In this document: positions 6,001 through 34,587 of the stretch, in pieces
Layout of the letters: each line of letters begins with the position of its first letter
Position numbering within the stretch: position 1 is the stretch's first letter
Assembly (NCBI GenBank): GCA_030263375.1
Contig: SZOV01000026.1
Coordinates: forward strand, 1 to 35,110
DNA: 35,110 bases
Source of the DNA: Deltaproteobacteria bacterium PRO3
Lineage (GTDB): Bacteria; UBA10199; DSSB01
Reading direction: 5' to 3'
The notes under the pieces: model-generated
Told to the model about the DNA's origin: nothing
Seen by the model: the letters and a program-made list of their open reading frames with translations, nothing else
The model's database searches: none
Position numbers and translations under genes: made by a program

Positions 6001-7979
6001 GGGGGGACCTTCGAACTTTGGAGACGGAGGCGAGCGTGGATTCTCCCGCCTTCGAGGCCGCGGCCCGACGCCTGGCCGCCGTAGTGCGGACGCGCCGCTT
6101 CGACGCGGCCTTCCGCGGCGCCGACGTGCCGCTGATGTCCGGCGAGATGCGCCGCGACTTCGCCCGCCGCGTCGCCGAGCTCTACGATCCGGCCGCCGGC
6201 CCGGGGCGAGTGGCGGAGCTGCTGCCCCCGCCGCCGGTCGCGCCGCCCGAGCCCGGCGTCACCGAGCGCCGCGACATGATTCAGCGCGGCTTACTCGATT
6301 TGGCCTTCTCCGGCCGAGCCCGGCCGGCCTTCGCGGAACGTCTCCGCGCCGTCGACCAGCTGGAACTCCTTGCCACGCGGCTCGAGGAGGACGGCTTCGC
6401 TGAGGCGGCCTCGGACTTGCGGACCGACTTGACGGTGCTGCGCGAAGGCAGCGTTCACGGCCCGGCCTTTCAAAACACGATGCGCCGGCTCGGCCGCGTG
6501 CTGGGCACCCACGTGGGCGAGGCAACCTCGGTGCCGCTCGTCAACGCGATCGGCGAAGCCGACTTCGCCAGGCTGGCCCAAAGCATCGAAGCCATTTACC
6601 GTCCCCCCGCCGTCGAGGCCCCCGCGGTGGCCGAGGGCGCGCCGCTCGAGGGCGATCCCTTCGATTTCGGCGATCTCAACGCGGAACTGGGCCTAGAGGG
6701 CGGAAGCTCCCCGCGCCGTCCGGCGACCGGGACCGCCGACCCCCTCGATTGGGGCGACATGAACGCCGAGCTGGGCCTCGAGGCGCCGGGCACCGCGCGG
6801 CCTCCCGAGAGCGGCGGCGCTCCCGAGGCGCCCCCGCCGGAGGCCCCGGTAGCCCCCGTCGTCCCCCTGCGTCCGCCCGTTCCTGCGGTACGCGAGGCCC
6901 CGCGCCTTGCGGCCTTGGCCGCCGACGTCGCGGTGATGGGCGACACCGTCCTGATCGGGGAAGAAGTATTTTCGCTGCGCACCGAGCGCGCCGACGCCGT
7001 GATGGGTGAGGTCCCGCCCGTGGAACGCACCGTGTTCCGCTTCACCAACACCACCCTGACCGGCGGCTCGGGCGTCGCCTTGGCTCTACCCAGCACCTAC
7101 ACCGCGGAGGACGCGGCCCGGATGGTCTCGCGGCTCTCGCCTTCGGTGCGCCGCAGCTTGAGCCGAATGCGGCCCGAGGACGTGGGGCGCATCGTGGAGA
7201 TGTCTGAGCGGATGCGCGCTTCGTCTCCCGCCACGACGGTGGAGGGATATGCCTTGCCCGCCTCCATGGGCGGAGGCACCGTCGGCGGCGGCATCGGCGA
7301 AAGCGTCGTCTGCACCGGAGAGATTATCGGCGTCGGCAGCGGCCGCACCACCTTCCGCGGCTACGTCACCGAGGCCGACGGCACGCGGCGTCCCGTGGCC
7401 CTGGTGATGCTCACCCATTCGATGGGCGGGACCTTCCACAGCGAGGCCTTGAACTTAAGCCGCCTGGCCGAGGCCGGCGTCGGCGAGGTCCGCTTCGACG
7501 GGCTGGTCCGAATCGACGGCCGCCAAGCCTTGGTCGTCAACCTGGCCGAGGGCACGCCGCACGTCGGGCTGGGCGATCTCTCGGTTCGGGATCGCGCCGA
7601 TTTCAACCCGCTGATGGCCCGCGATCTCGCGCGGATGGCGGTCGCCGGCTACACCTCGGGGGCGGGAACGGACTTTCAGTATATTTGGGGAAGGGACGCG
7701 CGCGGACGGCCGCGCCTGCAGTGGATCGACACCGAGTCCTCGGTCCTGACGATCGACGACGCACGCACGGCGGCCTTGCGCGAGCGCCTGGGCCGCGAGA
7801 CCCTCACGGCCCAGGATTGGTATTTGGAAAATCTCCGCGGCTTCGGCCTCTACAACCCGGAGACGGGACGCTTCGCCGACGGGGTGCCGCACACCTTTCA
7901 GGACGCCCTGCGCTACGAGCCGAGCGCCTCGCGGCCCCGCGGCGAGCGCAGCAGCACCCTCCCTCCGCCGCCGAGCTAG
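3..7979 (+). CDS. Giant multi-domain protein, 5'-truncated by the window edge
   Basis: Function not recognised. The frame is open with strongly GC-rich third positions from base 3, 57 codons before the first Met at 174, and that ATG has no ribosome binding site, so the true start lies outside the window. Residues below are counted from that Met (2601 aa visible). About 1-670 is helical and TPR-like. About 680-885 is a hydrophobic Gly/Ala-rich module shared with the two large genes at 8587-14948. About 1143-1240 and 1700-1803 are two copies of a beta-rich FHA-like domain with the pattern LxVDFS ... PETA ... GDRIRxADGRE. About 1438-1530 and 1553-1640 are a duplicated helical unit, and about 1890-2015 and 2030-2143 another. 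Low-complexity linkers carry a recurring GTVV motif. About 2375-2590 resembles a degenerate protein-kinase fold: VALVM stands where VAIK is expected, and WIDTES (Asp2519) resembles the DFG region. No enzymatic activity can be asserted. The stop codon shares the CTAG at 7976-7979 with the convergent toxin gene. Confidence 0.9.
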   Translation, partial: SDLTDRDRTDRIGRNLTELFELRRSLRGATTHEWIEGRDVELVTHDAEERIAEVNTLMRDYAIDLHNASSGFIESRGASAAIDRLMSGIIEGEREALVPRLSAEGLTEYCRQSAEAEAAVERAGGLSDPAERRTALAEALRGFVALGDSTRVNDVFDQMVASLPADAGDLLRLQVFTAMGSILHGSGMGAEERLRDLASPIARRLASTPTPSMYREEIEVDDFSVGGTTRAHTVSRTLVNPRAYLDTAASILAVRSYFTAVGDSEAARATDERLGTLRSQLDDQLGGTTDSRRRIEIAATSVEIDMALDGIASPEHLSAWRNSIRSATDLPTDDRLTQARTLLRVATLCRREAESSGTTRTDLAEINTWATQVIGDIAADRIRHLRNERHVDAEFADAVIADFRSRLDRAVTDGDTAWLGAVSERAIDQFADLAQSGHVLLSGRHTPPTRRELQACLQAAAIFGRLGLNARVNEAMAPLITQAEGIENSTERANFYLTLGQVFQEAGMSTEANGMLDRIVALDVEGAPRELHRIAEMVPAMREMNLGHLDRARELLGAIRGNPRAEEMLRNVEGAVRRARALQVLDALRLVAGDYIAQERERGSTRASESDREIRRALDEAQRLILSGRCGSVREALRRFSDYGLRDMLWESRASAPIRDILDASADITLSDDTFSDRMLSFASSLSAGRMYSSASQIGNLLTRNPHTRDAARALVDGIPGEARLSGILTELGNMTIIFAESDAAAIRSGVITAVTFGVGSLAARGAELAFAAYVTETTLASTVALRATGFVAGSLTEAVTYNLADMAFETMFSGRTDHWTLENFGRRVGAMLVTFMFCRSMGAITSGLGRAAARTSLLGEAAAGGGRTLTLGGRIAVGTLGYGGTITGLTGVEYLNEAMGLHPSEGHVPFLTRLLGAAVMDAQMRLAGRLANEVTGGTIERWGAATRERYAIHELLPAVERLGFGRPNERGELSAEGMTALSAMLARVARGESAADVASSVGRETSGDLSRVTSMVLGVDANSAEGRRLQALLFSYRASHPEADLAEVAGRLQVEAGRLARAAGLREGPAYEIVRAELLRRALASGATVESLSSGGEAMERLRPELEGLANELLGPRGAASLEGQRLIGDLLLRTLDHPGGVSVEGGVVARIREQVRGMGLDPASAAGRRMAADLLLARLAPASETLALEANAEAGSSRLDGGVLHVDFSRPGFRHVSIAGHGEIWFGETAAAGEYRVDNHTGETITVIRAHAVPEGSGRSMTETLAPETASAPAGSTVLRPGDRIRFADGREFVVGEPLRAARAEAPAEGPGAEGTARPGRTRTGEAPVIPLEGRGERPPTAEPDLLAAFRHADPSEPPSRELLRRSFALSDRLARELGLTDPHDAAANRPFREAFARRAARGPVTESTLREIRDSFRALDASLHGVDPMMRSEVRRRAFTRLLSGEMSGEAARELSRRIREGEVRVETGRDGALDIVEVPAEGRAEARSTARRRIFDHLAEAHFPETVTARLRSGYESGSVTLERLEATVESLPAVRRWISAGGVEPSSTAGHRILSRTVVGLAEGRLELREGRVVEAARGEGPRVRAPETGGTAEGAPPLPAEVEGLITRNFPERLRERLRAGVRDGSITQARLEAAVGALPAVRRFIADSGTDPSSREGARILDRVVTDLATGRLEVREGRIVRPGVETEARPEGGDEGRGTVVEGRGRGARDRAESGEEAGTVVEGRGRGGRTEGSAEGEGPMVSGAGSEGVSFSEGTLTVDFSDARRPFRNATIPGLRGPIRLALATGGGVMLLNTSGEPVTVVRPNAREGFLPEEVVRPETATAHPGRAELVSGDRIRLADGREIVLRFEIPAEGAEAPAEPAGPPGGPVEPESGAGGGTVVLGPRRPPTPDPAAEVGTVVIRGGRPAEPAPREGILPMANPEGTPVEAIPRAPRVLADGERAAAIDVRLTEIAFPDPAERGGFANNTVALELGSIADGLEGAHPEVARSIRGDLRTLETEASVDSPAFEAAARRLAAVVRTRRFDAAFRGADVPLMSGEMRRDFARRVAELYDPAAGPGRVAELLPPPPVAPPEPGVTERRDMIQRGLLDLAFSGRARPAFAERLRAVDQLELLATRLEEDGFAEAASDLRTDLTVLREGSVHGPAFQNTMRRLGRVLGTHVGEATSVPLVNAIGEADFARLAQSIEAIYRPPAVEAPAVAEGAPLEGDPFDFGDLNAELGLEGGSSPRRPATGTADPLDWGDMNAELGLEAPGTARPPESGGAPEAPPPEAPVAPVVPLRPPVPAVREAPRLAALAADVAVMGDTVLIGEEVFSLRTERADAVMGEVPPVERTVFRFTNTTLTGGSGVALALPSTYTAEDAARMVSRLSPSVRRSLSRMRPEDVGRIVEMSERMRASSPATTVEGYALPASMGGGTVGGGIGESVVCTGEIIGVGSGRTTFRGYVTEADGTRRPVALVMLTHSMGGTFHSEALNLSRLAEAGVGEVRFDGLVRIDGRQALVVNLAEGTPHVGLGDLSVRDRADFNPLMARDLARMAVAGYTSGAGTDFQYIWGRDARGRPRLQWIDTESSVLTIDDARTAALRERLGRETLTAQDWYLENLRGFGLYNPETGRFADGVPHTFQDALRYEPSASRPRGERSSTLPPPPS

Positions 7980-8293
7980 AGGAACAAACCGCGCCAATCC
8001 CGGCCGGGCGCCGTGAGGTGGAGCACCAGGACCGAGTGGACCTCCACGGTATAGAAAATCAAATAGCCGTTGTGTTCGATGAAACGGATCTCCGGTCCTC
8101 CTTCGGGACCTTCCAACAGCTCGACCCTGCGACCGCGCCGGGGAAACCTGCCCAAGGCAAGGATTTTTCTTTTCAGACCCTCGGTGAATCGTCGGGCGCG
8201 CGCCGGCGAGTCCTCGCCGATGAAACGATAGATACCCTCCAATTCCCGCAAGGCATCGCTGTGGATTCGGACCCGATAGGATTTAACGCCCAT
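7976..8293 (-). CDS. RelE/ParE-family toxin (type II toxin-antitoxin)
   Basis: A 105-aa basic protein with the RelE/ParE layout: an N-terminal strand (YRVRIHSDA), two helices (ALRELEGIYRFI and ARARRFTEGLKRKI), the FPRRGRRV turn, then the strands around PEIRFIEHNGYLIFY and VLVLHLT. Family members either cleave mRNA at the ribosome (RelE) or poison gyrase (ParE). The sequence alone does not say which, although the long helical hairpin and the FP-RxGR turn look more ParE-like. Its ATG lies inside the 3' end of the antitoxin gene (11-nt overlap), the usual order and coupling for such pairs. Its TAG overlaps the stop codon of the convergent giant gene, so the two reading frames meet with no intergenic base. 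Confidence 0.88.
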   Translation of the reverse strand: MGVKSYRVRIHSDALRELEGIYRFIGEDSPARARRFTEGLKRKILALGRFPRRGRRVELLEGPEGGPEIRFIEHNGYLIFYTVEVHSVLVLHLTAPGRDWRGLFL

Positions 8294-8552
8294 GGTACTT
8301 GCGATCGAGGGCTCGGAAGGCGGCCGAGGCGTCGACGGAGGCCTCAGGCCGGCGGGCGCGCCGCTTGAGCAGATCGCGCAGGTCCTTGATCTGCGAAGCG
8401 ATCTCCAAGGTCTCGAGGTCGCAAACGCCGAAATCCGGGCGGCCGTTGTTGGTGATGATGATGGGGGTCTTCTTGAGCTGGGCCTTGACCTTGTCGAGGT
8501 TGGTCCGCAGCTCGGACATGGGTAGGATGGATTTTTCGAAGGAAATGGCCAT
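8283..8552 (-). CDS. Phd/YefM-family antitoxin
   Basis: An 89-aa protein with the Phd/YefM N-terminal pattern: KSILPMSELRTNLDKV, then PIIITNNGRPDFGV, then a helical segment from DLETLEIASQI. In this family the N-terminal half dimerises and binds the operator, and the charged C-terminus (here KRRARRPEASVDASAAFRAL) wraps the toxin. It is the first gene of the pair and overlaps the toxin start by 11 nt. The ATG at 8552 follows an AT-rich promoter so closely that almost no leader remains, and no Shine-Dalgarno sequence is visible, so a near-leaderless mRNA is likely. A later Met (MSELRTN) would delete the first strand and is a poorer choice. Confidence 0.88.
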   Translation of the reverse strand: MAISFEKSILPMSELRTNLDKVKAQLKKTPIIITNNGRPDFGVCDLETLEIASQIKDLRDLLKRRARRPEASVDASAAFRALDRKYHGR

Positions 8553-8555
8553 GGA

Positions 8556-8590
8556 TTTTAAAATAATATAAAAATTATTTTAAAAGTCAA
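8556..8590 (-). promoter_or_regulatory. Toxin-antitoxin promoter inside a perfect 12-bp inverted repeat
   Basis: Bases 8556-8567 and 8574-8585 are perfect inverted repeats (TTTTAAAATAAT and its complement) around a 6-bp centre. On the minus strand TTGACT (8590-8585), a 16-bp spacer and TATTAT form a good sigma-70-like promoter lying over this repeat, so a bound Phd-type antitoxin would block it. The -35 box overlaps the TGA (8589-8587) of the upstream 1254-aa gene. The predicted transcript starts only a few bases before the antitoxin ATG. Confidence 0.7.
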
Positions 8591-11500
8591 TCGCCGGCTT
8601 CCCCCAGCCATCGCCGCCACAGGGGCGAGGTCTCCGGCAGAGACCCGGAGAAATATTCCTCCAAGCCCTCCAGCATCCGGAGGACGTCGCCCTCCGCCCG
8701 GACCCAGCGCCGGCCCAGGCCCACCGTCATCAGGTCGCCGGCAAAATAGTAGAGATCGTCCACCAGGACGTCGAAGGGGAAATCGGGAAAGGGCAGCTTG
8801 GCCACCGTCAGATCCGGGAGGCGGCGCAGCTCCTGCTCGCTGCGGATTCCCTCGAGGAAGTCCCTGCCTACCTCGCTCTCGAAATGCCTCGCGTAGTGCT
8901 CGCGAAACTTGAGGCGATCCATGTAGTGCGGCGCCGCGTTCAGGTCCTGAAGGCCCACCAACCGGTGCGGGTCGCCGGGCGGCGCGATCTCCATCGCCAC
9001 CTTGATCAGCGGGAAGTCGTTAAAGAAGACCTCGTGGTTGCCGACCAGGTTCTCCGAGGCGGTGTAGAGCCGCACCCGGTTGCCGGCGGCCCAGAGCCCG
9101 AGCAGCATGGCCTGGACCCCGCGGTAAGGAAGTCGCAGGCGCGTGTACTGGTGGATATAGTCCTCCATCCGCACGTCGAAGTCCTGGGGACGCTCGCGGT
9201 AGGCGTCCTCGGCCAAGTAGCGCATCAGGGTGTCGCCCAGCGTCTTGTCCAGGTCGAAGGCGATGTCGCGGCCGCGGATCGGCCCGCGCGCGGCGCGCTC
9301 GTAGAGCGCGGCCTGCTCGGGGGAGAAATTCGGGTGGAAGCGCCGCAGGAGGTCCAAGCCGGTCTCGTAGCGCAAGACGGGGTCCAAGGCTTCCGTCGCG
9401 ACCGGCTCGGCGCGCGGCGGGGCGATGTCGAAGACGCCCTGTAGGGCCAGCCAGTCGCCGCGGCGCCGGATCTCCTCCTCGCCGCGCATCGAAGGCGGAC
9501 TCAAGTAAAGATCGTAGAGCGCGCGCAGCTGCCGCGAGGCGCGGCGCCACGTCGTGAAAGAGGCGTCCAATCTTTGGAAGGCCTCCCGCTCCGCCGCGAA
9601 GCCGCTGGCGTCTTCCCGCAGCGCCGTGCCGAAGGCCCCGCGCGCCGCCACGACGTCGCGCTGGAATTGCTCCAAGGCCCAGTCGGCCTCGGTCAACCAC
9701 TCGGGCAGGTTGGCGGAAAGGGGCCTTGCCCCTGCCTGGTTCATCCCGTCGAATTCCCGCGCGGCCAGGTTCAGCAAGCCGCGGATGTACTCGGACTGCC
9801 CCTCCAAGGACGCCAGGCGAAGCCGGGCCGCGGCCGGATCCAGCGCCATGGCGGGGCTGCGATCCGCGCGGCCGGCATTGCGCAGGAAATAGATCGCCTC
9901 GATCCGGTCGCGCAGGTAGAGGGCCGGCCCCGCCGGAGACTCGCGGAACATCGCGTCCAGCTCCTCGGGGTGGCCCAGGAGCGCGCGATAATGGATATGG
10001 CGCAGGTGCGCGGGCAGCTCCTCGCGCAGCGCGGAGAGATCCGTGCGCGGACTCAAGGTCGGCCGGAGGTGGTGGTCGAACTCGTGGACGACGTCCACCA
10101 GCCGCTCGCGTAGGACCCGCCGGAAGACGGGCTCGGAGACGCGTTGCACCTGGCGCAGGACCAACTGGTCCGCCGCCCTGCCCTCCCCCGCGGGCAGCAG
10201 GAAGGCGCGGATCATCGCGCCGCTGTGGCCCCGGTTCTCGCGGGCGAAGAGGGCCTCAAATTCGAAGTCGGGCAAGAGGCGGATCTCCACCTCGCCCGCG
10301 CGCAGCGCGGCGGCGACCTGGGTGGAGATGGGGTCGCCCAGGGCCTCGAAGGCGCGGGTGAGATCTTCGGGGCTAAGTTCACGAGGCTCGGGGAAAAGGC
10401 CGCGCAGGACCTCCTCGCTGCGCTCGCGGCGCCGCATGGCCTCGAGGGGGTTTCTCAGGGAGCGATTGTCGGCCAGCATGCGGTTTAAATAATCCAGCCA
10501 GCGCAGGTCGGCGAGATAGCCGTCGCCCTGCGAGCGCAGGAGGGCGTAGCCGCTCACCTCGCGCTCCCGATCGCCCCACAGGCGCAGGCGCGGATCGGCC
10601 AGCTCGAAGAGCTTGGCGTCGATCGCGGCGTCGTGCTCCAAAACTTGGAAAAGCCGCACCATCCTCAGGTAGGAGACCGGGCTGTGGCGAAACTCCTCCA
10701 AGGTCGGCTCGATCAGGCGCGCCACGGGATCCCGCGAGCGCAGGCGCTCGTCCAGGTGCCGGAAGAATTCCATCGGCACCTGGCCCTGGTAGCGGAGAAA
10801 GCGGAGCAAGACCTCGCGGGCCGACTCGCCCAAGGGCAAGGCCTCGACAGCGCGCGTCTGGGCTGCGCCGGGCGGAAAGTCCCGCGCCAGTCCCCTCCCG
10901 CCGCGCCGGCCGAAGAGGTCGAAGGCCGGAACCTGCTCGGCCAGGAAGGTCTCCAAGGCCTCGACCGGCGCCCCGTTTTCTAGGAGCTCGAAGAGTCGCC
11001 GTCCCCAGTCGGCCCGGCCCTGACGGATCGTCTCTTGGGTCGAGAGGCGGAGCAGCCAATTAAGGTAGCCGCCGTTCAGCCCCTCGTCCGAGGAGTGCTC
11101 GACCGCGTGGCGCAGGCGGCGCAGGCCGAGATGCAGGCGCTCGCCCTCCCACTCCAGCCAAGGGCGGCCGACCTCGTGGAGGCGGCCGAAGGGTACGTCC
11201 AGCAATTTCGCCAGGGCCTCGAAGGCGTTCAGGACGCGGACGCCGGTCTCCCGGTCGTAGCGACCGATAATCTCGCGGCGCGCGGCGTTCTCCGCCTCGG
11301 GAGCGAAGGCTTCCGGCCTGGGCGGAAGCTCGCTCGAGCGCCGCGAGGCGGCCAGGCGCCAAGGGGGCATCGTCGCGGTTTCCGATTCGCGCGGATGCAG
11401 CGCGAAACGGGGCGCGGGTAAAAGCTCGCGAGGCGTCGATGCCTCCAAAAAGGCCTCGAGGCGCGGCGCCGCCGCCGGCATGACACCGTGCAAGAGGCGC

Positions 11501-25058: not shown

Positions 25059-26612
25059 TCATTGGACAAATTTTTCAATCCACGCCAAGGCCGCCCGCAT
25101 TCCATCCACCGCCGCGCTGGTGATGCCGCCCGCGTAGCCCGGACCCTCGCCGCAGGGGAAGAGCCCCTCGGTCGACACGCTCTCGAAGGTTTCCGGGTCG
25201 CGGGGGATGCGGACCGGCGAGGAGGTGCGCGACTCCACCGCGTGCAGGACCGCGTCGGGGTGGGCGAAGCCGCGGCGCCGGCGGTCGAAATCCAAGAGCC
25301 CCTTTCGCAGGTAATCGACGATCCACTCCGGCAGCAGCTTCGAGAGATCCGCCGCCACGATGCCGGAGGGACAGCTCGACTTGGCCGTGACCGGGCCCTC
25401 GCGGCCCTCCAGAAAATCCTCCAGGCGCTGCGCCGGGATCGCCCGGCCCTCGCCGCGCGCGCGGCTCGCGGCGTAGACTTGGCGCTCGATCCCGCGCTGG
25501 AACTCCATCATCTTGAAGGGCCCCTCGCCGGCGACGCGCCAGGTGTCGACGCTGCAGACCACGGCCGCGTTCGCCCACTTGGAATTGCGGTGGTAGTTGC
25601 TCATCCCGTTGACGACGATCGTCCCGGGGTCGGTGGTGCTGGAGATGACGTAGCCGCCCGGACACATGCAGAAGGTGTAGACGCCGACCTTTTCGGCATC
25701 CCAATAGCTTTGCAGCTTGTACTGCGCCGTCTCCAAGCCCGGCAGGCCGCAGGCCTCGCCGTATTGCCAGCGGTCGATAGTAGCCTGGGGGTGCTCGATG
25801 CGCAGCCCCAAGGCGAAGGGCTTCGGCTCGAAACAGACCCCCTGCGATTGCAGGGTATGAAAAAAATCCCCCGCGCTGTGCCCGCAGGCCAAGATAAGCC
25901 CGGTGCCCGCGACTTTCGTCCCGTCGGCCAAGACGACGCCCTGCGTCCGGTTGCCGGCCAGGTCCAAGGCCTCGACCCGCGTGTCAAAGCGCAGCTCGGC
26001 CCCGCGCGCGATCAGGTCGTCGCTCATCTTCTTGATGACCTCGCGGATCAAATTGCTGCCGACGTGCGGGTTGTAGACATAGGCGATCTCCGGCGGCGCG
26101 CCGTAGTCGACGAAGGCCCGCATCACGCGCGGGATCAGCGGGCTCTTGATCCGCGTGATCAGCTTGCCGTCGCTGAAGGTACCGGCCCCGCCCTCGCCGT
26201 TGCAGACGTTGCTGTCCGGATCGAGCTCGCCGCGCCGCCAGTAGCGGCTGATCTTGAGCATCCGCGCGTGGGTCCGCGCGCCGCGCTCGAAGAGGACGGG
26301 CTTGATCCCGTGGGCCAGAAAGGTGTGGGCCGCGAAGAGCCCCGCCGGCCCCGCGCCCAGGATGAGCGGCGGCGGCCCCTTCCAGGAGACCTGCGGAAAA
26401 GGCTCGAAGGTCCGCGCGACCTCCTCTCCCCGGAAATAGACCTCGAGGGAGTAGACCCAGGCCAGCTTGTGCCGTTGCCGGGCGTCGAGGCTGCGCTTCA
26501 GGACGCGGATGTCGCCGATTTGATCGGGGGTAATACCCAGGTGCGCGGCAACCAAGGCCGCGAGATCGGGGTCCCGTTGGTAGGGAATGCGAAATTCGTG
26601 AAGGACCTTCAT
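25059..26612 (-). CDS. FAD-dependent dehydrogenase, COG2509 type
   Basis: A 517-aa flavoprotein. An N-terminal ferredoxin-like domain (about 1-80; HEFRIPYQRDPD) precedes a Rossmann FAD-binding motif (PLILGAGPAGLFAAHTFL, about 83-100), NGEGGAGTFSDGKL, a second nucleotide-related segment around GLILACGHSAGDF, CPGGYVISS, and the C-terminal FAD contact GEGPGYAGGITSAAVDGMRAA. This is the pattern of the uncharacterised FAD-dependent dehydrogenases of COG2509, which have no agreed substrate. Several Cys (SNVCNGEGG, FCMCPGG, SSCPSG) are typical of the group. GGGAG lies 5 bases before the ATG. It follows the TetR gene by 60 bases on the same strand and may be in its operon. Confidence 0.9.
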   Translation of the reverse strand: MKVLHEFRIPYQRDPDLAALVAAHLGITPDQIGDIRVLKRSLDARQRHKLAWVYSLEVYFRGEEVARTFEPFPQVSWKGPPPLILGAGPAGLFAAHTFLAHGIKPVLFERGARTHARMLKISRYWRRGELDPDSNVCNGEGGAGTFSDGKLITRIKSPLIPRVMRAFVDYGAPPEIAYVYNPHVGSNLIREVIKKMSDDLIARGAELRFDTRVEALDLAGNRTQGVVLADGTKVAGTGLILACGHSAGDFFHTLQSQGVCFEPKPFALGLRIEHPQATIDRWQYGEACGLPGLETAQYKLQSYWDAEKVGVYTFCMCPGGYVISSTTDPGTIVVNGMSNYHRNSKWANAAVVCSVDTWRVAGEGPFKMMEFQRGIERQVYAASRARGEGRAIPAQRLEDFLEGREGPVTAKSSCPSGIVAADLSKLLPEWIVDYLRKGLLDFDRRRRGFAHPDAVLHAVESRTSSPVRIPRDPETFESVSTEGLFPCGEGPGYAGGITSAAVDGMRAALAWIEKFVQ

Positions 26613-26672: not shown

Positions 26673-27338
26673 TTAGCCCCGCGCCCGCTTCGGCGCCTCG
26701 GCCTCCTCGATGCTGCCCAGGATCGCGTCCAAGCCACCGCGCAGCGCGGGGTGGATGATGCCGGTGATGACGAAGGTGTAGATCTCGCGCTCGATGTCGC
26801 GGATCGCGGGCTTCTCGGTGCCCAGGACGTACTGGTAAAATACCTCTTTCACCGCGCCCAGCAGGCAGACCGCCAGCACGCCGACGTCGCCCTCGCGCAC
26901 GAAGCCCATCTTCTGCCCCTGCCTGAGGCCGCGGCGGATGTAGTCGAGGACCAGCTCATAGAATTTTCGGATGTGCTCGTCGAACTCGCTGTCCAGGCCC
27001 ACCGCGTCGCTGAACACCAGCTTGATCCACAGCGGGTTCTTCATCAGCAGCGCGGTCACCCGCCGCAGGTTGCCCATGATCTGCGCCGGGATCTGGTCGA
27101 CGGCGTCGAGCGGCAGGGCGCGGATCTGCCCCGCGATCTCCTGGAAGATCTGCGCGATGATCGCCTCGAAGATCTCGCGCTTGCCCTCGAAGTAAAGATA
27201 GAAGGTGCCGCGCGCGACCTTCGCCTGCGCGATGATGTCGGAGACCTGCGTGTCGTGATAGCCCTTCTTGCCGAAGGCGGCCAAGGCGGCCTGCATCAGT
27301 TGAGTTTTGCGCTGCTCTTTGTCGAGGTGTTGGCCCAT
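26673..27338 (-). CDS. TetR-family transcriptional regulator
   Basis: A 221-aa repressor-type protein. The N-terminal helix-turn-helix is standard for the family: LMQAALAAFGKKGYHDTQVSDIIAQAKVARGTFYLYFEGKRE contains helices 1-4, with the GTFYLYF signature at about 44-50. The helical remainder would bind an effector and dimerise. It is divergent from the ether-lipid operon, and a palindrome of the TetR operator type lies between them, so regulation of that operon and of itself is likely. A fatty acid or acyl-CoA ligand would make sense but is inferred from the neighbours. The ATG has no ribosome binding site at normal distance; a perfect AAGGAGGT lies 39 bases upstream beyond a stable hairpin (27346-27373). 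Confidence 0.93.
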   Translation of the reverse strand: MGQHLDKEQRKTQLMQAALAAFGKKGYHDTQVSDIIAQAKVARGTFYLYFEGKREIFEAIIAQIFQEIAGQIRALPLDAVDQIPAQIMGNLRRVTALLMKNPLWIKLVFSDAVGLDSEFDEHIRKFYELVLDYIRRGLRQGQKMGFVREGDVGVLAVCLLGAVKEVFYQYVLGTEKPAIRDIEREIYTFVITGIIHPALRGGLDAILGSIEEAEAPKRARG

Positions 27339-27439: not shown

Positions 27440-27469
27440 AAGATTAAACTGACATGTCAGTCTAATTTT
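27440..27469. promoter_or_regulatory. TetR-type operator between the regulator and the ether-lipid operon
   Basis: ACTGACATGTCAGT (27448-27461) is a perfect 14-bp palindrome, extended to 15-base half-sites with 13 of 15 matching. It lies in the 206-bp divergent gap. On the minus strand a TATGAT (27427-27422) lies just downstream of it and could be the -10 box of the regulator gene, so binding would cover the -35 area. Confidence 0.7.
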
Positions 27470-27544: not shown

Positions 27545-29359
27545 ATGGAAAACTCGCCGACCCGCATCTTCCCCCCGGCCCCCGCTCCCAAGCCCGATGA
27601 AGAAGAGAGCCTCGACGTCTGGGGCTTCCGCGACACGAAATTCGAAATCCTAAACAACGGCAGCGTCCGACTCACCGGCTCGCGTTACTCGCTCTGCGGC
27701 CAGGAGCTGCCCTCGCTGCTCCCCTGGGTGAGCGAGGTCATGAAAGTGCCGGTGCGCGCCGACGACGTCTATCCGCCGGCCTATCCCACGCCCATCCCCG
27801 AGGCGCTGGCGCACCCCCAGTTCCTCGCCGAGCTGCGCAAGACCTTCGCCGAGGACCAGCTGAGCCAGGACCCGAAGATCCGCCTGCGCCACGGCCACGG
27901 CCACACCCAAGAGGAGATGTTCGCGATCAAGTACGGCAAGATCGGACGCATCCCCGACCTGGTCGTCTTCCCCACCGAGGAAGGACAGGTCGCGGCCCTG
28001 GTCGAGGCGGCGCTGAAGTACGAGGCCTGCCTCATCCCCTTCGGCGGCGGAACCTCGGTGACCGAGGCCCTGCGCTGCCCCGAAAACGAGGCCCGCTTCA
28101 TCGTCTCGGTCGACATGCGCCGCATGAACCGCATCCTCTGGATCGATCCGGTCAATCGCATGGCCTGCATCCAGGCCGGCGCGGTGGGCCGCCACATCGT
28201 CGAGCAGCTCAAGGGCTACGGCTTCACGATGGGCCACGAGCCCGACTCGATCGAGTTCTCCACCCTGGGCGGCTGGATCGCCACCCACGCCAGCGGCATG
28301 AAGAAGAACCGCTACGGCAACATCGAGGATCTCGTCCTCGACATCCACGCCGTGACCGCCGCGGGCAAATTGGAGCGCAGCTCGGTCACCCCCCGCGAGT
28401 CGGTGGGCAGCGATCCGCGGCTCTGGCTCTTCGGATCGGAGGGAAACTTGGGCATCGTCACCTCAGCGGTGGTGAAGCTCTTCCCCCTGCCGGAAGTGCA
28501 GAACTACGGATCGATCCTCTTCCCCACTTTCCAGGACGGCGTCGCCTTCCTCTACGAGCTCGCCCAGACCCACGCGGTGCCCGCCAGCATCCGCCTGGTC
28601 GACAACCTGCAATTCCAATTCGGCATGGCGCTCAAGCCCAAGGCGACGGGGCTCAAGGCGCTGAAGAGCAAGCTGGAAAAATTCTTCGTCGTGAAGCTGA
28701 AGGGCTTCGACCCGCAGCAGATGGTCGCCTGCACCATCGTCTTCGAGGGCAGCCGTGCCGAGGTCGCCGCGCAAGAGAAGACGGTCTACGGCCTGGCCAA
28801 GCGCCACGGCGGGATGAAGGCCGGCGCCGAGAACGGCATCCGCGGCTACCAGCTGACCTTCGGCATCGCCTACATCCGCGACTTCGTGATGAAGCACTAC
28901 TTCCTCGCCGAGTCCTTCGAGACCTCGGTGCCCTGGAGCCAGGCCGAGGCGCTCTGCGCCAACGTCAAGCGGCGCCTGGCCGAGGAGTACGAACGCCGTA
29001 AGCTGCCCGGCAAGCCCTTCATCACCTGCCGGGTGACCCAGGTCTACGAGACCGGCGTCTGCGTCTACTTCTACTTCGGCTACTATTATAAGGGCGTTCC
29101 CCATCCTTCCGAGGTCTACGCCGAGCTCGAAGTCATCGCCCGCGAGGAAATTTTGAAAAACGGCGGCTCGCTCTCCCACCACCACGGGATCGGTAAGCTT
29201 CGCCAGCGCTTCCTCCCGCAGATCAAGTCGCCCGCGACCCTCGCCTGGGTCGAGCAGGCCAAGCGCGCCCTCGATCCCCACAACGTCTTCGGCAGCGCCA
29301 ACCAGGGGGTCGGGGCGAAGGACTCGCCGGCCCCGAAGGCCGCGGGAGGCGCGCAATGA
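27545..29359 (+). CDS. agpS: Alkyldihydroxyacetonephosphate synthase (AGPS), ether-lipid synthesis
   Basis: A 604-aa FAD enzyme of the vanillyl-alcohol-oxidase fold. AGPS exchanges the acyl chain of acyl-DHAP for a fatty alcohol and so makes the ether bond of alkyl-DHAP. The match to animal AGPS is close in many blocks: IPFGGGTSVTEAL (FAD phosphate loop), GHEPDSIEFSTLGGWIATHASGMKKNRYGNIEDLV, GSEGNLGIVTSA, PASIRLVDNLQFQFG, GFDPQQ, GYQLTFGIAYIRD, ESFETSVPW, CRVTQVYETG, and the active-site run GGSLSHHHGIGKLR near the C-terminus. The length fits the bacterial and mature animal enzymes; there is no peroxisomal presequence. The ATG at 27545 has AGAGGAA six bases upstream; an earlier start at 27473 lacks this. 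It is first in a four-gene operon, and its stop overlaps the next start (ATGA). Confidence 0.93.
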   Translation: MENSPTRIFPPAPAPKPDEEESLDVWGFRDTKFEILNNGSVRLTGSRYSLCGQELPSLLPWVSEVMKVPVRADDVYPPAYPTPIPEALAHPQFLAELRKTFAEDQLSQDPKIRLRHGHGHTQEEMFAIKYGKIGRIPDLVVFPTEEGQVAALVEAALKYEACLIPFGGGTSVTEALRCPENEARFIVSVDMRRMNRILWIDPVNRMACIQAGAVGRHIVEQLKGYGFTMGHEPDSIEFSTLGGWIATHASGMKKNRYGNIEDLVLDIHAVTAAGKLERSSVTPRESVGSDPRLWLFGSEGNLGIVTSAVVKLFPLPEVQNYGSILFPTFQDGVAFLYELAQTHAVPASIRLVDNLQFQFGMALKPKATGLKALKSKLEKFFVVKLKGFDPQQMVACTIVFEGSRAEVAAQEKTVYGLAKRHGGMKAGAENGIRGYQLTFGIAYIRDFVMKHYFLAESFETSVPWSQAEALCANVKRRLAEEYERRKLPGKPFITCRVTQVYETGVCVYFYFGYYYKGVPHPSEVYAELEVIAREEILKNGGSLSHHHGIGKLRQRFLPQIKSPATLAWVEQAKRALDPHNVFGSANQGVGAKDSPAPKAAGGAQ

Positions 29360-32046
29360 CCAAGCCTGGCCACCATGTCCTGATCACCGGCGTCACCGGC
29401 TTCGTCGGCAAGGTCGTCTTAGAAGAGATCCTGCGCCGCGCGGAAGAGTTCGACCTGGAGAAGGTCTACGTCCTGATCCGCTCCGGCAAGAAGGGCCACT
29501 CGCCCCAAGAGCGCTTCCACCACGAGGTCGCGACCTCGCCCTGCTTCTCGAAGCTGCCGGCCGGCTGGGAAGACCGCGTCGCCGTCGTCGGCGGCGAGCT
29601 GAGCGAGACCGCCTGCGGCCTGAACGCCGCCGACCGCGAGACGCTGGGCGGACAACTCACGCACATCATCAACTGCGCCGCCTCGGTCGAATTCGACCTC
29701 CCCCTGCCCGTCGCGGCCAAGGCCAACATCGCCAGCAGCCTCCATGTTCTCGAGCTGGCCAAGTCCTGCCGGCGCCTGAAGCGCTTCGTCAACGTCTCCA
29801 CCGCCTACGTGACGCCGCACCGCGGGACGAACGTCCCCGTCGCCGAGGCGCCGGTCGCCCTGCCGCGCCCGGCCCGCGAGATCTATCAAGACATCCTCGA
29901 CGGGAAATTCGACGCGCGCAAGCTCTTGAAAGAGACGGGACACCCCAACACCTATACCCTGACCAAGTGCCTCTCCGAGCACCTGCTGCTGGAAAACCGC
30001 GGCGAGGTCCCCTTAAGCATCGTGCGGCCCAGCATCGTCTCGGCCTGCTGGAAGCACCCCTTCCCCGGCTGGATCGACAGCCGCGCGGCCTTCGCCGGCT
30101 TCGTCGCCCTGATCGGCGCGGGCTACCTGCGGGCGGTGGTCGTCGACGAGGCCACGCTGCTCGACATCGTCCCCTGCGACGTGGTCGCCGACCGCATCCT
30201 GCGCAGCGCCTTCACCGATTCCGACGCCGCGCCCGGCGAACCCGCCATCCGCTACGCGGTGGCCGGCAAGCGCCACAGCTGCTCGGTGCGCGAGAACATC
30301 GACGTGATCGAGGGCTACTTCCGCCGCTACCCCCTCGACCGCTACCCGCACCTGCGCTACACCGGGCCCGACAACCTGACCTTCCGCCTGCGCCACTGGC
30401 AGTGGCACCTGGGTCCCGGCAAGGCCCTGGCCGCCTGGTTCAAGCTGAGCGGCAACGAGAAGAAACGAAAGCAGGTCGAGCGCCTCACCGGCCAGCTGCA
30501 TTATTTGAATACGGGTTTTCCCTACTTCACGCACTGCACCTTCGACTTCCGCCCCTCGATGCCGATCGACGACGTAGATTTCGAGAAAAAGGCCTACATC
30601 GAGACGGTGTGCAGCGGCGTCTACCGCTTTTTGATGAAGAAGGACGAACGCGAGGTCCCCTTCGCGGGGCGCAAGCACCGCGGCTTCGAGGGCGACCTGC
30701 GCTGGACCGCCTCGCGGCCCAAGGGCAACGGCGCGATCCGCGCCTCGGCCTACCTGGCGCGCAAGGTGCTGCGCCGCTCGGCGGACGCCATCACCTTCGA
30801 CCGCAAGGCCTTCGAGGCCGCGCGCCGCGCTATCCCCGACGACACCCTGCTGGTGATCGTCCCCACGCACCGCAGCTACCTAGATTTCATCCTCTGCTCT
30901 TATCTCTTCTTCGCCTATCCCGAGCTGGGGATCGCCATCCCGCACATCGCGGCGGCGCAGGAGTTCGGCAAGATCCCGCTGCTCGGCAAGGTCATCCGCA
31001 AAACCCAGGCCTTCTACGTCCAGCGCGGCCTGGGCCGCGAAAACCCCGAGCTGACGCGGCAGATCCACGACTTGGTGAGTCGCAAGCAGGCCTTGGAGTT
31101 CTTCATCGAGGGCACGCGCAGCCGCTCGCGCCAGGCCTTGAAGCCGCGGCGCGGGATCCTCAAGTGCCTCCAGGCCTCGGGCCAGGCCTGCAGCATCTTG
31201 CCGATCTCGATCAGCTACGACCGCCTGCCCGAAGAAAACTCTTTCCAACGCGAGCTGAGCGGGGCGCCCAAGCCCAAGATGCGTCTGGGCGGCCTCTTGG
31301 CCTGGATCGGCCGCGTCCTGCGCGGCGAGATCCGCTTGGGCCGCATCCACATGACCTGCGGCCGGCCCCTGACGATGAACCTCGACAGCGACCTGAACGG
31401 ACTGAGCCTCCAGGTGATGGCCGAGCTGCAGGCGGGCCTGGCGCCCACCACCCACCACCTGCGCAGCTTTTTGCAAAAGCACCCCCTGCCGGGCATCGGC
31501 CTGGACTGGCTGAAGTCGGCCATCGAGGCCCGCGGCGGCCGCGTCCTGGAGAGCCCGCTCAAGGGGGAAGAGAAGGTCGACCCGACGATCGCCGCGACCT
31601 TCCACTACCAGTGGAGCCACTATTTCTTCCCCGAGGCCCTGGCCGCCTTTCCGGAGCACCCGGCGATCCGGCATTTCCTGCGAGGTAATCTTTACATGGA
31701 AGTCCCCACGCCGCGCCCCGGCGCGGCGGGCGACGAGCGCCTTGGCTCGGTACTCCAAGCCCTCTTCCAGCCCCTCTGCCGCGACTACTTCGGCGCAGCG
31801 GAGGCCCTGGGAGAGCGCCCGGGCCACGTGCCGCTCCGCTCCGCCGTGGAGCTGCTGCCGGAGATCCCCGGCGCGCACCTGCCGCACCTCGAGGCCTGCC
31901 TCGAGGACCTCGTCGCGCGCGAGATCCTCGTCCAGCTGCCCAAGGGCGAGGGTTACGCCTGGGGGCCGAAGGCGCAGGACTTGAATCGTTACCGCGAGGC
32001 CTGCCGCTGGCCGGAGGGCGCCGCGCGTCTGGCGGCGGTGGGTTGA
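29356..32046 (+). CDS. Fatty acyl-CoA reductase fused to GNPAT/PlsB-type DHAP acyltransferase
   Basis: An 896-aa two-enzyme fusion. Residues about 1-380 are an alcohol-forming fatty acyl-CoA reductase of the extended SDR type: NAD(P)H motif TGVTGFVGK, NCAASVEFD, FVNVSTAYV and the catalytic YTLTK, with a shortened C-terminal FAR domain to about 440. Residues about 450-730 are a glycerolipid acyltransferase: motif I PTHRSYLDF (His505, Asp510), motif II AFYVQRG, motif III FFIEGTRSRS (from about 582) and motif IV PISISYD, followed by GAPKPK and GGLL as in animal DHAP acyltransferase (GNPAT) rather than E. coli PlsB. The last 170 residues are helical. One chain would thus make both the fatty alcohol and acyl-DHAP that the upstream AGPS combines. 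The 4-nt overlap with agpS supports coupled translation. Which acyl acceptor is used (DHAP or glycerol-3-phosphate) is inferred. Confidence 0.92.
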   Translation: MTKPGHHVLITGVTGFVGKVVLEEILRRAEEFDLEKVYVLIRSGKKGHSPQERFHHEVATSPCFSKLPAGWEDRVAVVGGELSETACGLNAADRETLGGQLTHIINCAASVEFDLPLPVAAKANIASSLHVLELAKSCRRLKRFVNVSTAYVTPHRGTNVPVAEAPVALPRPAREIYQDILDGKFDARKLLKETGHPNTYTLTKCLSEHLLLENRGEVPLSIVRPSIVSACWKHPFPGWIDSRAAFAGFVALIGAGYLRAVVVDEATLLDIVPCDVVADRILRSAFTDSDAAPGEPAIRYAVAGKRHSCSVRENIDVIEGYFRRYPLDRYPHLRYTGPDNLTFRLRHWQWHLGPGKALAAWFKLSGNEKKRKQVERLTGQLHYLNTGFPYFTHCTFDFRPSMPIDDVDFEKKAYIETVCSGVYRFLMKKDEREVPFAGRKHRGFEGDLRWTASRPKGNGAIRASAYLARKVLRRSADAITFDRKAFEAARRAIPDDTLLVIVPTHRSYLDFILCSYLFFAYPELGIAIPHIAAAQEFGKIPLLGKVIRKTQAFYVQRGLGRENPELTRQIHDLVSRKQALEFFIEGTRSRSRQALKPRRGILKCLQASGQACSILPISISYDRLPEENSFQRELSGAPKPKMRLGGLLAWIGRVLRGEIRLGRIHMTCGRPLTMNLDSDLNGLSLQVMAELQAGLAPTTHHLRSFLQKHPLPGIGLDWLKSAIEARGGRVLESPLKGEEKVDPTIAATFHYQWSHYFFPEALAAFPEHPAIRHFLRGNLYMEVPTPRPGAAGDERLGSVLQALFQPLCRDYFGAAEALGERPGHVPLRSAVELLPEIPGAHLPHLEACLEDLVAREILVQLPKGEGYAWGPKAQDLNRYREACRWPEGAARLAAVG

Positions 32047-32077
32047 TGGATTCGTAGGTTTGCACAGGAGCGTGAAT

Positions 32078-33157
32078 ATGAAAAAAATTCCCTTCCTCGT
32101 CACCGGCGCCACCGGCTTCGTCGGCCGCCACCTGCTCCAGGCCTTGAGCCAAGACCCCGAGGTCCTGCCGATCGCCCTGGTCCGCGACAAGAAAAGTTGG
32201 GCCTCCCAAAACTGGACCCACGGCCTGAAGGGCGTCGAGCTGATCGAGGGCTCGGTGACCGAGCCGAAAAAATGGAAGGACGATCCGCGCCTACAGGGCC
32301 TGGGCGGAATCTACCACCTGGCCGCCGTCATCAAGCACACGCGGCGCGAGCCCGAGGAGATGCTGCGCACCAACGTCGAGGGGCTGCTGCGCATGGTCGA
32401 GCTGGGCGCAGAGCGGAAATGCCGCGTCCTCTTCGTCTCCACCTCCGGGACGGTGGGCTGCTTCGCGACGCCGGACCGCCAGGCGGACGAGAAATCGCCC
32501 TACCAAGAGGCGACCGTCGGCTCTTGGCCCTACTACGCCTCGAAGATCCGCGCCGAGCGCGAGGGCCGCAAGCTGGCCGAGTCGCTGGGCGTCGAGCTGG
32601 TGATCCTGCGCCCGCCGGTGCTGCTGGGCCCGGGCGATCACCGGATGCGCGCTACCAGCCACATCGCCCGCCTGCTGCGCGGCAAGCTCCCCTTCATCGT
32701 CAACGGCGGGATGCACTTCGTCGACATCCGCGACGTGACGCAGGCCATGCTCCGCGCCATGCGGATCTCGCGCCCCAAGCCCGTCTACCACCTCTGCGGG
32801 ACCGCCTACCGCATCGAGGCCTTTTTCAAAAAAGTCGCCGAGCTGGGCGGGGTGCCTCCGCCCAAGCTGCAACTGCCGCCGCTGGCGGCCAAGCTGCTCG
32901 CCAAGACCTCGGGCCTGCTCGACCGCTTCCTCCCGCCCCGCCCCCACCCCATCCTGCCGGACCCCGTGGTCTTCGAGATGGCCTCGAAGCACTGGGGCCT
33001 GAGCTCGCTCTATGCCAAGGAAGACCTGGGTTTTGTCTCGCGCAACCCCGAGACGACGCTGCGCGACACCATCCAGTGGCTGAAGGAGAATGTCCCGGAG
33101 CTGAAGGAAAAGGCCGCCGCCGAGCTGGGGCTGGAGGGCGCCGGGATGAAGCCTTGA
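32078..33157 (+). CDS. NAD-dependent epimerase/dehydratase-like SDR
   Basis: A 359-aa extended short-chain dehydrogenase. TGATGFVGRHL is the nucleotide-binding glycine motif, YHLAAVIKHT and LFVSTSGTVG are the expected strands, and YYASK holds the catalytic Tyr and Lys, followed by LRPPVLLGPGD. It is most like 3-beta-hydroxysteroid-dehydrogenase/epimerase-type members. In this operon an alkyl- or acyl-DHAP reductase, the next step of ether-lipid synthesis, is an attractive role, but the animal enzyme is a classical SDR and the sequence does not settle the substrate. AGGAG lies 7 bases before the ATG at 32078; a TTG at 32060 is a poorer start. It follows the fusion gene after 31 bases. Confidence 0.9.
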   Translation: MKKIPFLVTGATGFVGRHLLQALSQDPEVLPIALVRDKKSWASQNWTHGLKGVELIEGSVTEPKKWKDDPRLQGLGGIYHLAAVIKHTRREPEEMLRTNVEGLLRMVELGAERKCRVLFVSTSGTVGCFATPDRQADEKSPYQEATVGSWPYYASKIRAEREGRKLAESLGVELVILRPPVLLGPGDHRMRATSHIARLLRGKLPFIVNGGMHFVDIRDVTQAMLRAMRISRPKPVYHLCGTAYRIEAFFKKVAELGGVPPPKLQLPPLAAKLLAKTSGLLDRFLPPRPHPILPDPVVFEMASKHWGLSSLYAKEDLGFVSRNPETTLRDTIQWLKENVPELKEKAAAELGLEGAGMKP

Positions 33158-33213
33158 GCTTCCTCGCAAAATAGTCCATGTTGCGGCCCAGTCGGGAGGC
33201 CGCGCCGCGACCC

Positions 33214-34587
33214 ATGAGCTCGCTTCTGCACAGGTTCTCCGCCAAACTCTTCCAGCCCGTCGACGCCGCCTCTTTGGGGATGTTCCGCATCCTGTTCGGC
33301 GCCCTGATGGCCTGGCAGGCCTACTATTATTTGGCGCGGGATCGCTTCGTCGACTACTACCTCGAGCCCGGCTTCCGCTTCAGCTATGCCTTCTTCGAGT
33401 GGCTGCGTCCGCTGCCCGAGCCCTACTTCCGCGCCCTGCTGATCCTGATGGTCGCCGCGGGGATCGGCATCGCCGCCGGCATCCTCTACCGGACCTGCGT
33501 CCTGGTCTTTCTGCTGGGCTTCTCCTACGTCTTCCTCTTGGACAAGGCCTATTACAACAACCACTACTACGCGATCATCCTGCTCTGCTTCCTGATGCTG
33601 TTTACCTCGGCGACGCGGTGGGGCTCGCTCGCGCAGCGCCCTCGGCCGTGCGCCCCCTTCGTGCCCAATTGGAACCTCTTCATCCTCCGCGCCCAGTTCT
33701 TCATCATTTATTTCTACGGAGGGCTCGCCAAGCTCAACGCCGACTGGCTGCAGGGCGAACCGATGCGGCGCTGGCTGCTCAAGGTGGCGGACCTGCCCAT
33801 CGTCGGCCCGCTGATGACGACCGAGTGGGCGCCCTACTTCTTCAGCTGGGGCGGCCTGGTCTTCGACCTCTCCATCGGCTTCCTCCTGTGGTGGCGCAAG
33901 ACGCGCTTCGCCGCCTTCCTCGTCGTGCTCTTCTTCAACCTGACGAACAGCGTCCTGTTCCAGATCGGCGTCTTCCCCTTCCTGATGATCGCCGCGGCCA
34001 CCCTCTTCGACGACCCCGACTGGCCGCGCAAATTATTCGCTCAGAAATCCCCGCCGCCGGCGGAGGTCGCGGCCCCAGCGCAAAGCCGAGGGCGGGAGCT
34101 TACCTTGGCCCTGATCGCCGCGTATTTCGCGGTGCAAATCCTCGTCCCCTTCCGGCATTTCCTCATCCCGGGCGAGGTCAGTTGGACGGAGGAAGGCCAC
34201 CTCTTCGCCTGGCACATGAAACTGAGGGACAAGCAGGGACGGCTCAAGATCTGGGTGACCGACCCGGCTACGCAACGGACCTTCCAGGTCGACCCACTGC
34301 TGGAGCTGAATGAATTTCAATACGGAAAGATGAGGCAACGGCCGCAATTCATCTGGCAGTACGTCCAGCACGTGAAGCGCGAGCTCGCCGGCCAGGGGAT
34401 CCAAAACCCGATCATCCGGGTGGATGCCTGGGTCACTTTGAACGGCCGCCCCTACCAGCAGCTGATCGATCCCGACGTCGATTTGGCGACCGCCGACTCC
34501 TCCTTCTTCTCCGCCGATCCGTGGATCATTCCCTTGGATCCCAACCACCACCCGGGCACCCTCCCCGGAGATCCACCGACAGACTAA
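33214..34587 (+). CDS. Vitamin-K-dependent gamma-carboxylase homologue (HTTM family), full length
   Basis: A 457-aa membrane protein (469 aa if started at 33178, which has no ribosome binding site; GGGAGG lies 14 bases before 33214). The animal enzyme GGCX carboxylates Glu side chains using vitamin K hydroquinone. The match covers both parts: the membrane half (SLGMFRILFGALM, LLDKAYYNNHYY, FFIIYFYGGLAKLNADWLQGEP, where the Lys corresponds to the active base of GGCX, LFQIGVFPFLMIAA, DWPRKL) and the soluble half (FRHFLIPGEVSWTEEGHLFAWHMKLRD, then VDAWVTLNGRPYQQLIDPDVDL). Most HTTM bacterial proteins are shorter; this one keeps the lumenal-type domain. It has at least five hydrophobic helices. 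It is last in the ether-lipid operon, and its stop merges with a terminator. The protein substrate is unknown. Confidence 0.9.
   Translation: MSSLLHRFSAKLFQPVDAASLGMFRILFGALMAWQAYYYLARDRFVDYYLEPGFRFSYAFFEWLRPLPEPYFRALLILMVAAGIGIAAGILYRTCVLVFLLGFSYVFLLDKAYYNNHYYAIILLCFLMLFTSATRWGSLAQRPRPCAPFVPNWNLFILRAQFFIIYFYGGLAKLNADWLQGEPMRRWLLKVADLPIVGPLMTTEWAPYFFSWGGLVFDLSIGFLLWWRKTRFAAFLVVLFFNLTNSVLFQIGVFPFLMIAAATLFDDPDWPRKLFAQKSPPPAEVAAPAQSRGRELTLALIAAYFAVQILVPFRHFLIPGEVSWTEEGHLFAWHMKLRDKQGRLKIWVTDPATQRTFQVDPLLELNEFQYGKMRQRPQFIWQYVQHVKRELAGQGIQNPIIRVDAWVTLNGRPYQQLIDPDVDLATADSSFFSADPWIIPLDPNHHPGTLPGDPPTD

Follow-up and report, generated by a model that had tools for sequence, protein, structure and literature searches.

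A predicted DHAP-route ether-lipid operon of the Myxococcus xanthus MXAN_1676-1674 kind in a different, uncultured bacterial lineage

Three adjoining genes in the window, which is the whole 35,110-nucleotide contig C26 of a draft genome of 3.55 Mb in 198 contigs, are predicted to form an ether-lipid operon of the MXAN_1676-1674 kind that uses the aerobic-type (DHAP) route, a reading to which we assign a probability of about 0.8. The genes encode a homologue of alkylglycerone-phosphate synthase (AGPS), a fusion of a fatty acyl reductase (FAR) with an acyltransferase, and an extended SDR. In the proposed pathway, the reductase half would make fatty alcohol from fatty acyl-CoA or from acyl-ACP, and the acyltransferase half would make 1-acyl-DHAP from DHAP. 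AGPS would then put the fatty alcohol in place of the acyl chain, yielding 1-O-alkyl-DHAP, and the SDR would reduce this to 1-O-alkyl-glycerol-3-phosphate, which would then enter ordinary phospholipid synthesis. A divergently encoded TetR would repress the operon via a single palindromic operator. The gene identities, catalytic residues, co-conservation, and palindrome are read from the sequence; from these we infer what the enzymes do, that the acceptor is DHAP, which step the SDR performs, that the TetR represses, and what is made. The operon is real and meaningful, and it is another example of the M. xanthus type rather than a new kind.

The features of the locus are collected in Table 1. 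The open reading frames and coordinates given in an earlier note on this DNA were confirmed when rechecked in the sequence, as was its 4-base overlap (ATGA) of the AGPS and fusion frames, and all of the motifs that it had quoted occur in the fusion protein, in agreement with the Pfam domains NAD_binding_4 and Acyltransferase. At the other end of the window, an open reading frame of about 2600 codons occupies positions 174 to 7979.

Table 1. Features of the operon and its surroundings; positions are those of the window unless residues are stated.
Feature	Position	Strand	Remark
FAD-dependent protein gene	25059-26612	-	
TetR-family regulator, divergent from the operon	26673-27338	-	Pfam TetR_N, E = 2.9e-15
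Palindrome AAGATTAAACTGACATGTCAGTCTAATTTT, probable TetR operator	27440-27469		between the TetR and AGPS genes; 26/30 symmetric
AGPS homologue (alkylglycerone-phosphate synthase), 604 aa	27545-29359	+	4bby match, E = 1.6e-174
Fatty acyl reductase/GPAT-superfamily acyltransferase fusion, 896 aa	29356-32046	+	Pfam, AlphaFold, Foldseek
Layout of the fusion protein	residues 1-290, 290-470, 470-690, 690-896		reductase; FAR C-terminal-like; acyltransferase; C-terminal helical region
Extended SDR (Pfam Epimerase), ElbE-like	32075-33157	+	kept third gene of fusion loci
HTTM + VKGC lumenal domain membrane protein gene	33178-34587	+	Pfam

The AGPS homologue matches guinea-pig AGPS (PDB 4bby) over its full length with 585 bits, residues 19 to 586 aligning with residues 89 to 656, and it contains both the FAD-binding domain (PF01565) and the C-terminal domain (PF02913). 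Residues R419, Y578, and HHH615-617 of the guinea-pig enzyme, which are essential in AGPS, correspond to R350, Y508, and H545-547 in the window protein and are invariant in 7 homologues. R350 was placed opposite R419 by counting along the alignment; for Y508, the PDB mutant chain 4bca departs from the wild type at the first Tyr of CIYFYF, which is this residue. The predicted activity is that of an alkyl-DHAP synthase. Together with the co-conserved three-gene unit described below, the AGPS homology and active-site residues lend good support to the ether-lipid assignment made in the earlier note.

Sequence and fold alike relate the reductase half to fatty acyl reductases, and its predicted product is fatty alcohol. 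Pfam NAD_binding_4 (PF07993) covers residues 10 to 280 (E = 5.7e-62), and the FAR motifs TGxTGFxG and YxxxK are present, with Y200 and K204 invariant in 35 homologues. Foldseek matched the AlphaFold model (from 35 homologues; mean pLDDT of 90.7, pTM of 0.88) best to DPW, a fatty acyl reductase of rice (7eoz), and human GPAT1 (8e4y) was the next different molecule. Because the alignment with DPW spans 502 columns and almost all of 7eoz, residues 290 to 470, which Pfam leaves unnamed, are most likely, in the model, the counterpart of the C-terminal part of plant FARs. The Pfam Sterile domain (PF03015, the FAR C-terminal domain) had no match in the window fusion and a weak one in the related locus L069 (E = 0.0026).

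What does the second half of the fusion acylate? The earlier note had described a FAR-GNPAT fusion; the fusion of a FAR with an acyltransferase stands, and GNPAT is a putative identity: this half forms its own clade and is neither PlsB nor a proven GNPAT. Pfam Acyltransferase covers residues 492 to 620, and the GPAT/PlsC motif residues H505, D510, R557, E585, R588-R590, and P616 are present and invariant, so that the half retains HRSYxD, the motif-II Arg, and the EGTRSRSR block. We lean toward GNPAT on the basis of the motifs (HRSYxDF, SISYD) and the context. It is unlikely, in our judgment, that this half instead uses glycerol-3-phosphate or a lysophospholipid in the manner of PlsB/PlsC, with the fusion supplying AGPS with alcohol and another enzyme supplying acyl-DHAP. 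Such a role would fit the best named NCBIfam match, which is PlsB, though far under the cut-off (109 versus 610 bits), and mean identities that barely differ: 31% to 9vuq (a PDB glycerol-3-phosphate acyltransferase), 27% to GPAT1, 29% to the PlsB-type proteins of the class, and 33% to a provisional stretch of human GNPAT. No GNPAT was among the solved structures matched. However, in a maximum-likelihood tree with these same proteins, the fusion acyltransferases formed one clade (support, 100/100) apart from the class PlsB proteins, 9vuq, GPAT1, and the provisional GNPAT stretch, the last serving only as a lead. A firm grouping with PlsB, which the earlier note had set against its own reading, was thus not what the tree returned. 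Motif I also reads HRSYxD(F) rather than the HRSH/HKSHxD of the compared PlsB and GPAT1 sequences, and the fusion tracks AGPS across genomes. Finally, the same genome has a separate full-length PlsB-type protein of 902 residues with a GPAT_C domain, which leaves room for the fusion to be pathway specific. Pfam found no GPAT_C in the fusion, and together with the low NCBIfam score this led us to reject it as a member of PlsB.

AGPS and the fusion share one distribution within the class of the window genome: 8 of its 46 genomes carry both, and the remaining 38 carry neither, with one search by the acyltransferase half covering 40 of the 46. The chance of such a match is 4e-9 if relatedness is ignored, and the true figure is larger once relatedness is allowed for. 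In one of the eight genomes, G002, AGPS and the fusion are on separate contigs, and what was seen of the fusion is its acyltransferase end. In a wider survey, one scan of genome contigs kept the best 80 of 272 relatives, picked by reductase-half patterns and hence not an unbiased sample; with the window and genome G004 added, and with genes located by tblastn, it gave 48 loci with the fusion. AGPS lies directly upstream in 41 of these, the SDR lies downstream as the third gene in 39, and all three genes are present in 36. Contig ends explain 3 of the 7 loci that lack AGPS and 3 of the 9 that lack the SDR. The gene set and its order recur in dozens of genomes and are not due to chance, and we count both the shared presence in the class and the 36 loci as evidence for the ether-lipid reading. 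The record titles of the loci, mostly of metagenome-assembled genomes whose labels may be wrong, name Myxococcota, Gammaproteobacteria, Gemmatimonadota, Sericytochromatia, and others. No relatives were found in viral contigs. A survey of the gene order in other genomes had been proposed in the earlier note, which held the compact arrangement to be unusual; the order turned out to be common.

Several loci depart from this pattern or are of interest in themselves. In four spirochaete loci (L072, L073, L077, and L078), AGPS is followed by a reductase of 656 to 730 residues that lacks the acyltransferase half and whose C-terminal part has no Pfam match; in L075 and L079, the reductase after AGPS also lacks this half and has 422 to 457 residues. 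A record titled Comamonas sp. KCTC 72670 carries two AGPS-fusion-SDR operons (L055 and L065), one of them 84 to 90% identical to that of M. xanthus, which suggests that the record is probably a mislabeled myxobacterium. L069 (7977-10388) and L070 (7983-10394) encode a reductase with a very distant acyltransferase-like half (24 to 26%), with no AGPS or SDR beside it. In L023 (G000:C20, about 7998-10650, minus strand), two more reductases, both members of the Male-sterility family, lie side by side, with genes for an AMP-binding enzyme and a pyruvyl-transferase-like protein close by. Acidobacteria loci have comparable reductase pairs; in one such locus, L086, a member of the pair is fused to a HAD domain.

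Some of these observations weigh against the ether-lipid reading, namely, the six loci in which AGPS adjoins a reductase without the acyltransferase fusion and the four fusion loci (L057, L067, L069, and L070) with room upstream yet no adjoining AGPS. The separation of the acyltransferase clade from the provisional GNPAT stretch as well as from PlsB points the same way. Moreover, the activities are predicted from sequence, and the authors of a Black Sea study, who reported AGPS homologues in many phyla there, caution against taking ElbD homologues as proof of ether lipids (PMC11868695).

The closest known system is that of M. xanthus, in which MXAN_1676 (about 42% identical to human AGPS), MXAN_1675 (FAR1-like at its N terminus and GNPAT-like at its C terminus), and MXAN_1674 (NAD-dependent epimerase family) form a three-gene operon whose likely role has been noted since 2006 (PMC9131029). 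Hence, the operon with its FAR-GNPAT fusion was already known. Our survey recovered this locus as L052, with the same gene order, fusion, and family of the third gene as in the window; AGPS, the fusion, and the SDR of the window are 60%, 43%, and 42% identical to the copy in M. xanthus strain AM003. The window copy differs in having a divergent TetR gene with a palindrome and a VKGC neighbor. Disrupting the M. xanthus AGPS gene reduces ether lipids slightly, and elbE insertions reduce them as well, both of which speak for the ether-lipid reading; the contribution of the operon is minor there, with ElbD as the main route, which counts against it (PMC9131029). The elb cluster (ElbD-ElbE; relative L084) resembles the window operon in fusing a reductase to an acyltransferase and following it with a related SDR, but ElbD additionally has acyl-CoA ligase and carrier domains, and AGPS is not among the five elb genes (PMC9131029). 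The proposed reaction sequence is the same as that of the animal peroxisomal enzymes FAR1, GNPAT, AGPS, and DHRS7B/PexRAP, with AGPS clearly homologous; however, the animal enzymes are separate proteins in or on the organelle, and the acyltransferase of the window fusion is only a putative GNPAT. DHRS7B is a classical SDR, in contrast to the extended SDR of the window.

The SDR belongs to the pathway, because in genome G019 the reductase, acyltransferase, and SDR are a single open reading frame of 1170 residues and because the SDR resembles M. xanthus ElbE, being 33% identical to the SDR that follows ElbD in a Myxococcus genome. The one-frame fusion occurs identically at L020 (9252-12764) and L040 (7971-11483); L020 is titled Nitrospira sp., and the same contig was placed in the class of the window (G019), so the title is probably wrong. 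Since the pathway still needs an alkyl-DHAP reductase, we propose that the SDR probably performs this step. We regard as doubtful, though by no means far-fetched, the alternative that its substrate is fatty aldehyde, which it would turn into alcohol, or some other carbonyl, and that a general reductase such as GpsA performs the last step. Its model (pLDDT, 94.8) has its best fold matches in 3wj7, a putative oxidoreductase, and cinnamoyl-CoA reductases. By sequence and fold together, its best relatives are a putative oxidoreductase and reductases of the cinnamoyl-CoA/dihydroflavonol type, and NCBIfam indicates HpnA-like SDRs; these resemblances point to no one substrate. In addition, ElbD is proposed to give an aldehyde in M. 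xanthus (PMC9131029). Against this, the reductase half has the plant-FAR C-terminal region by fold, which makes the need for an extra aldehyde reductase uncertain, and the spirochaete loci that lack the acyltransferase half also lack an SDR beside the reductase, which weakly ties the SDR to the glycerol side.

The earlier note had named an SDR and a carboxylase homologue alongside the arrangement; the SDR is indeed the conserved third gene, and the VKGC-like gene lies outside the conserved unit and is probably a neighbor, not a part of the pathway. A fourth operon member working with the ether-lipid enzymes could be suspected from the gap of only about 20 bp behind the SDR, but we consider this very improbable: a close relative is absent from five of the eight operon-bearing genomes of the class (G004, G016, G019, G034, and G039) and present in three genomes without AGPS (G003, G005, and G006), and in the sister genome G002 the distance between this gene and the SDR is about 1.5 kb and includes a HATPase gene. 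We rejected its membership on this presence profile and neighborhood.

The palindrome is a probable TetR operator. Within AAGATTAAACTGACATGTCAGTCTAATTTT lies a perfect 14-base core, ACTGACATGTCAGT, at 27448-27461; with up to 2 mismatches, it is expected 0.01 times in the window, and it was found once, perfect. The four operon-bearing members of the family (G000, G001, G002, and G004) each have one perfect copy per genome, always roughly 80 to 100 bp ahead of the AGPS start, and a divergent TetR gene is present in each of these genomes whose upstream side is visible (G000, G002, and G004). A search of the genome for further perfect copies found none, only 2-mismatch sites about as rare as with a reversed-pattern control. 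The simplest reading is that this TetR is a single-target repressor of the operon.

Which ether lipids would the operon make? Full-length ElbD (FAR, acyl-CoA ligase, carrier, and acyltransferase) was found only in the Myxococcus control among six genomes searched; the window's own genome has ElbD parts only as separate pieces, and no AGPS- or ElbD-type route other than the operon was seen there. The CarF/PEDS1-type desaturase family PF10520 had no match in any of the eight operon-bearing class genomes, whereas the Myxococcus positive control matched. As neither full-length ElbD nor CarF, both of which M. xanthus has, was found in the genome, the predicted products are alkyl (plasmanyl) lipids rather than plasmalogens. 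M. xanthus does turn its alkyl lipids into plasmalogen (PMC9131029), but vinyl-ether products are quite improbable here given the missing desaturase in the window's genome and the seven others, a search that covered the CarF family.

New here are the one-frame fusion in G019, the palindrome found once per genome, the alkyl-lipid prediction, the exclusion of the VKGC gene, and the occurrence in a different, uncultured lineage. We give even odds to a broader hypothesis, in which the operon is a self-contained cassette of four steps (fatty alcohol, acyl-DHAP, alkyl-DHAP, and alkyl-glycerol-3-phosphate) under a single-operator TetR switch in a lineage without ElbD and CarF, the ElbE-like SDR is the missing bacterial alkyl-DHAP reductase, and G019 carries three of the four activities on one polypeptide. 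The exact functions of the M. xanthus operon genes were left open in a review of that system, where ElbD masks them (PMC9131029). Lineages with the operon alone, together with the natural FAR-acyltransferase-SDR fusion, make it possible to assign the steps more cleanly and to test for the animal DHAP route in a bacterium. If true, the SDR prediction would supply a step that is missing from the bacterial pathway.
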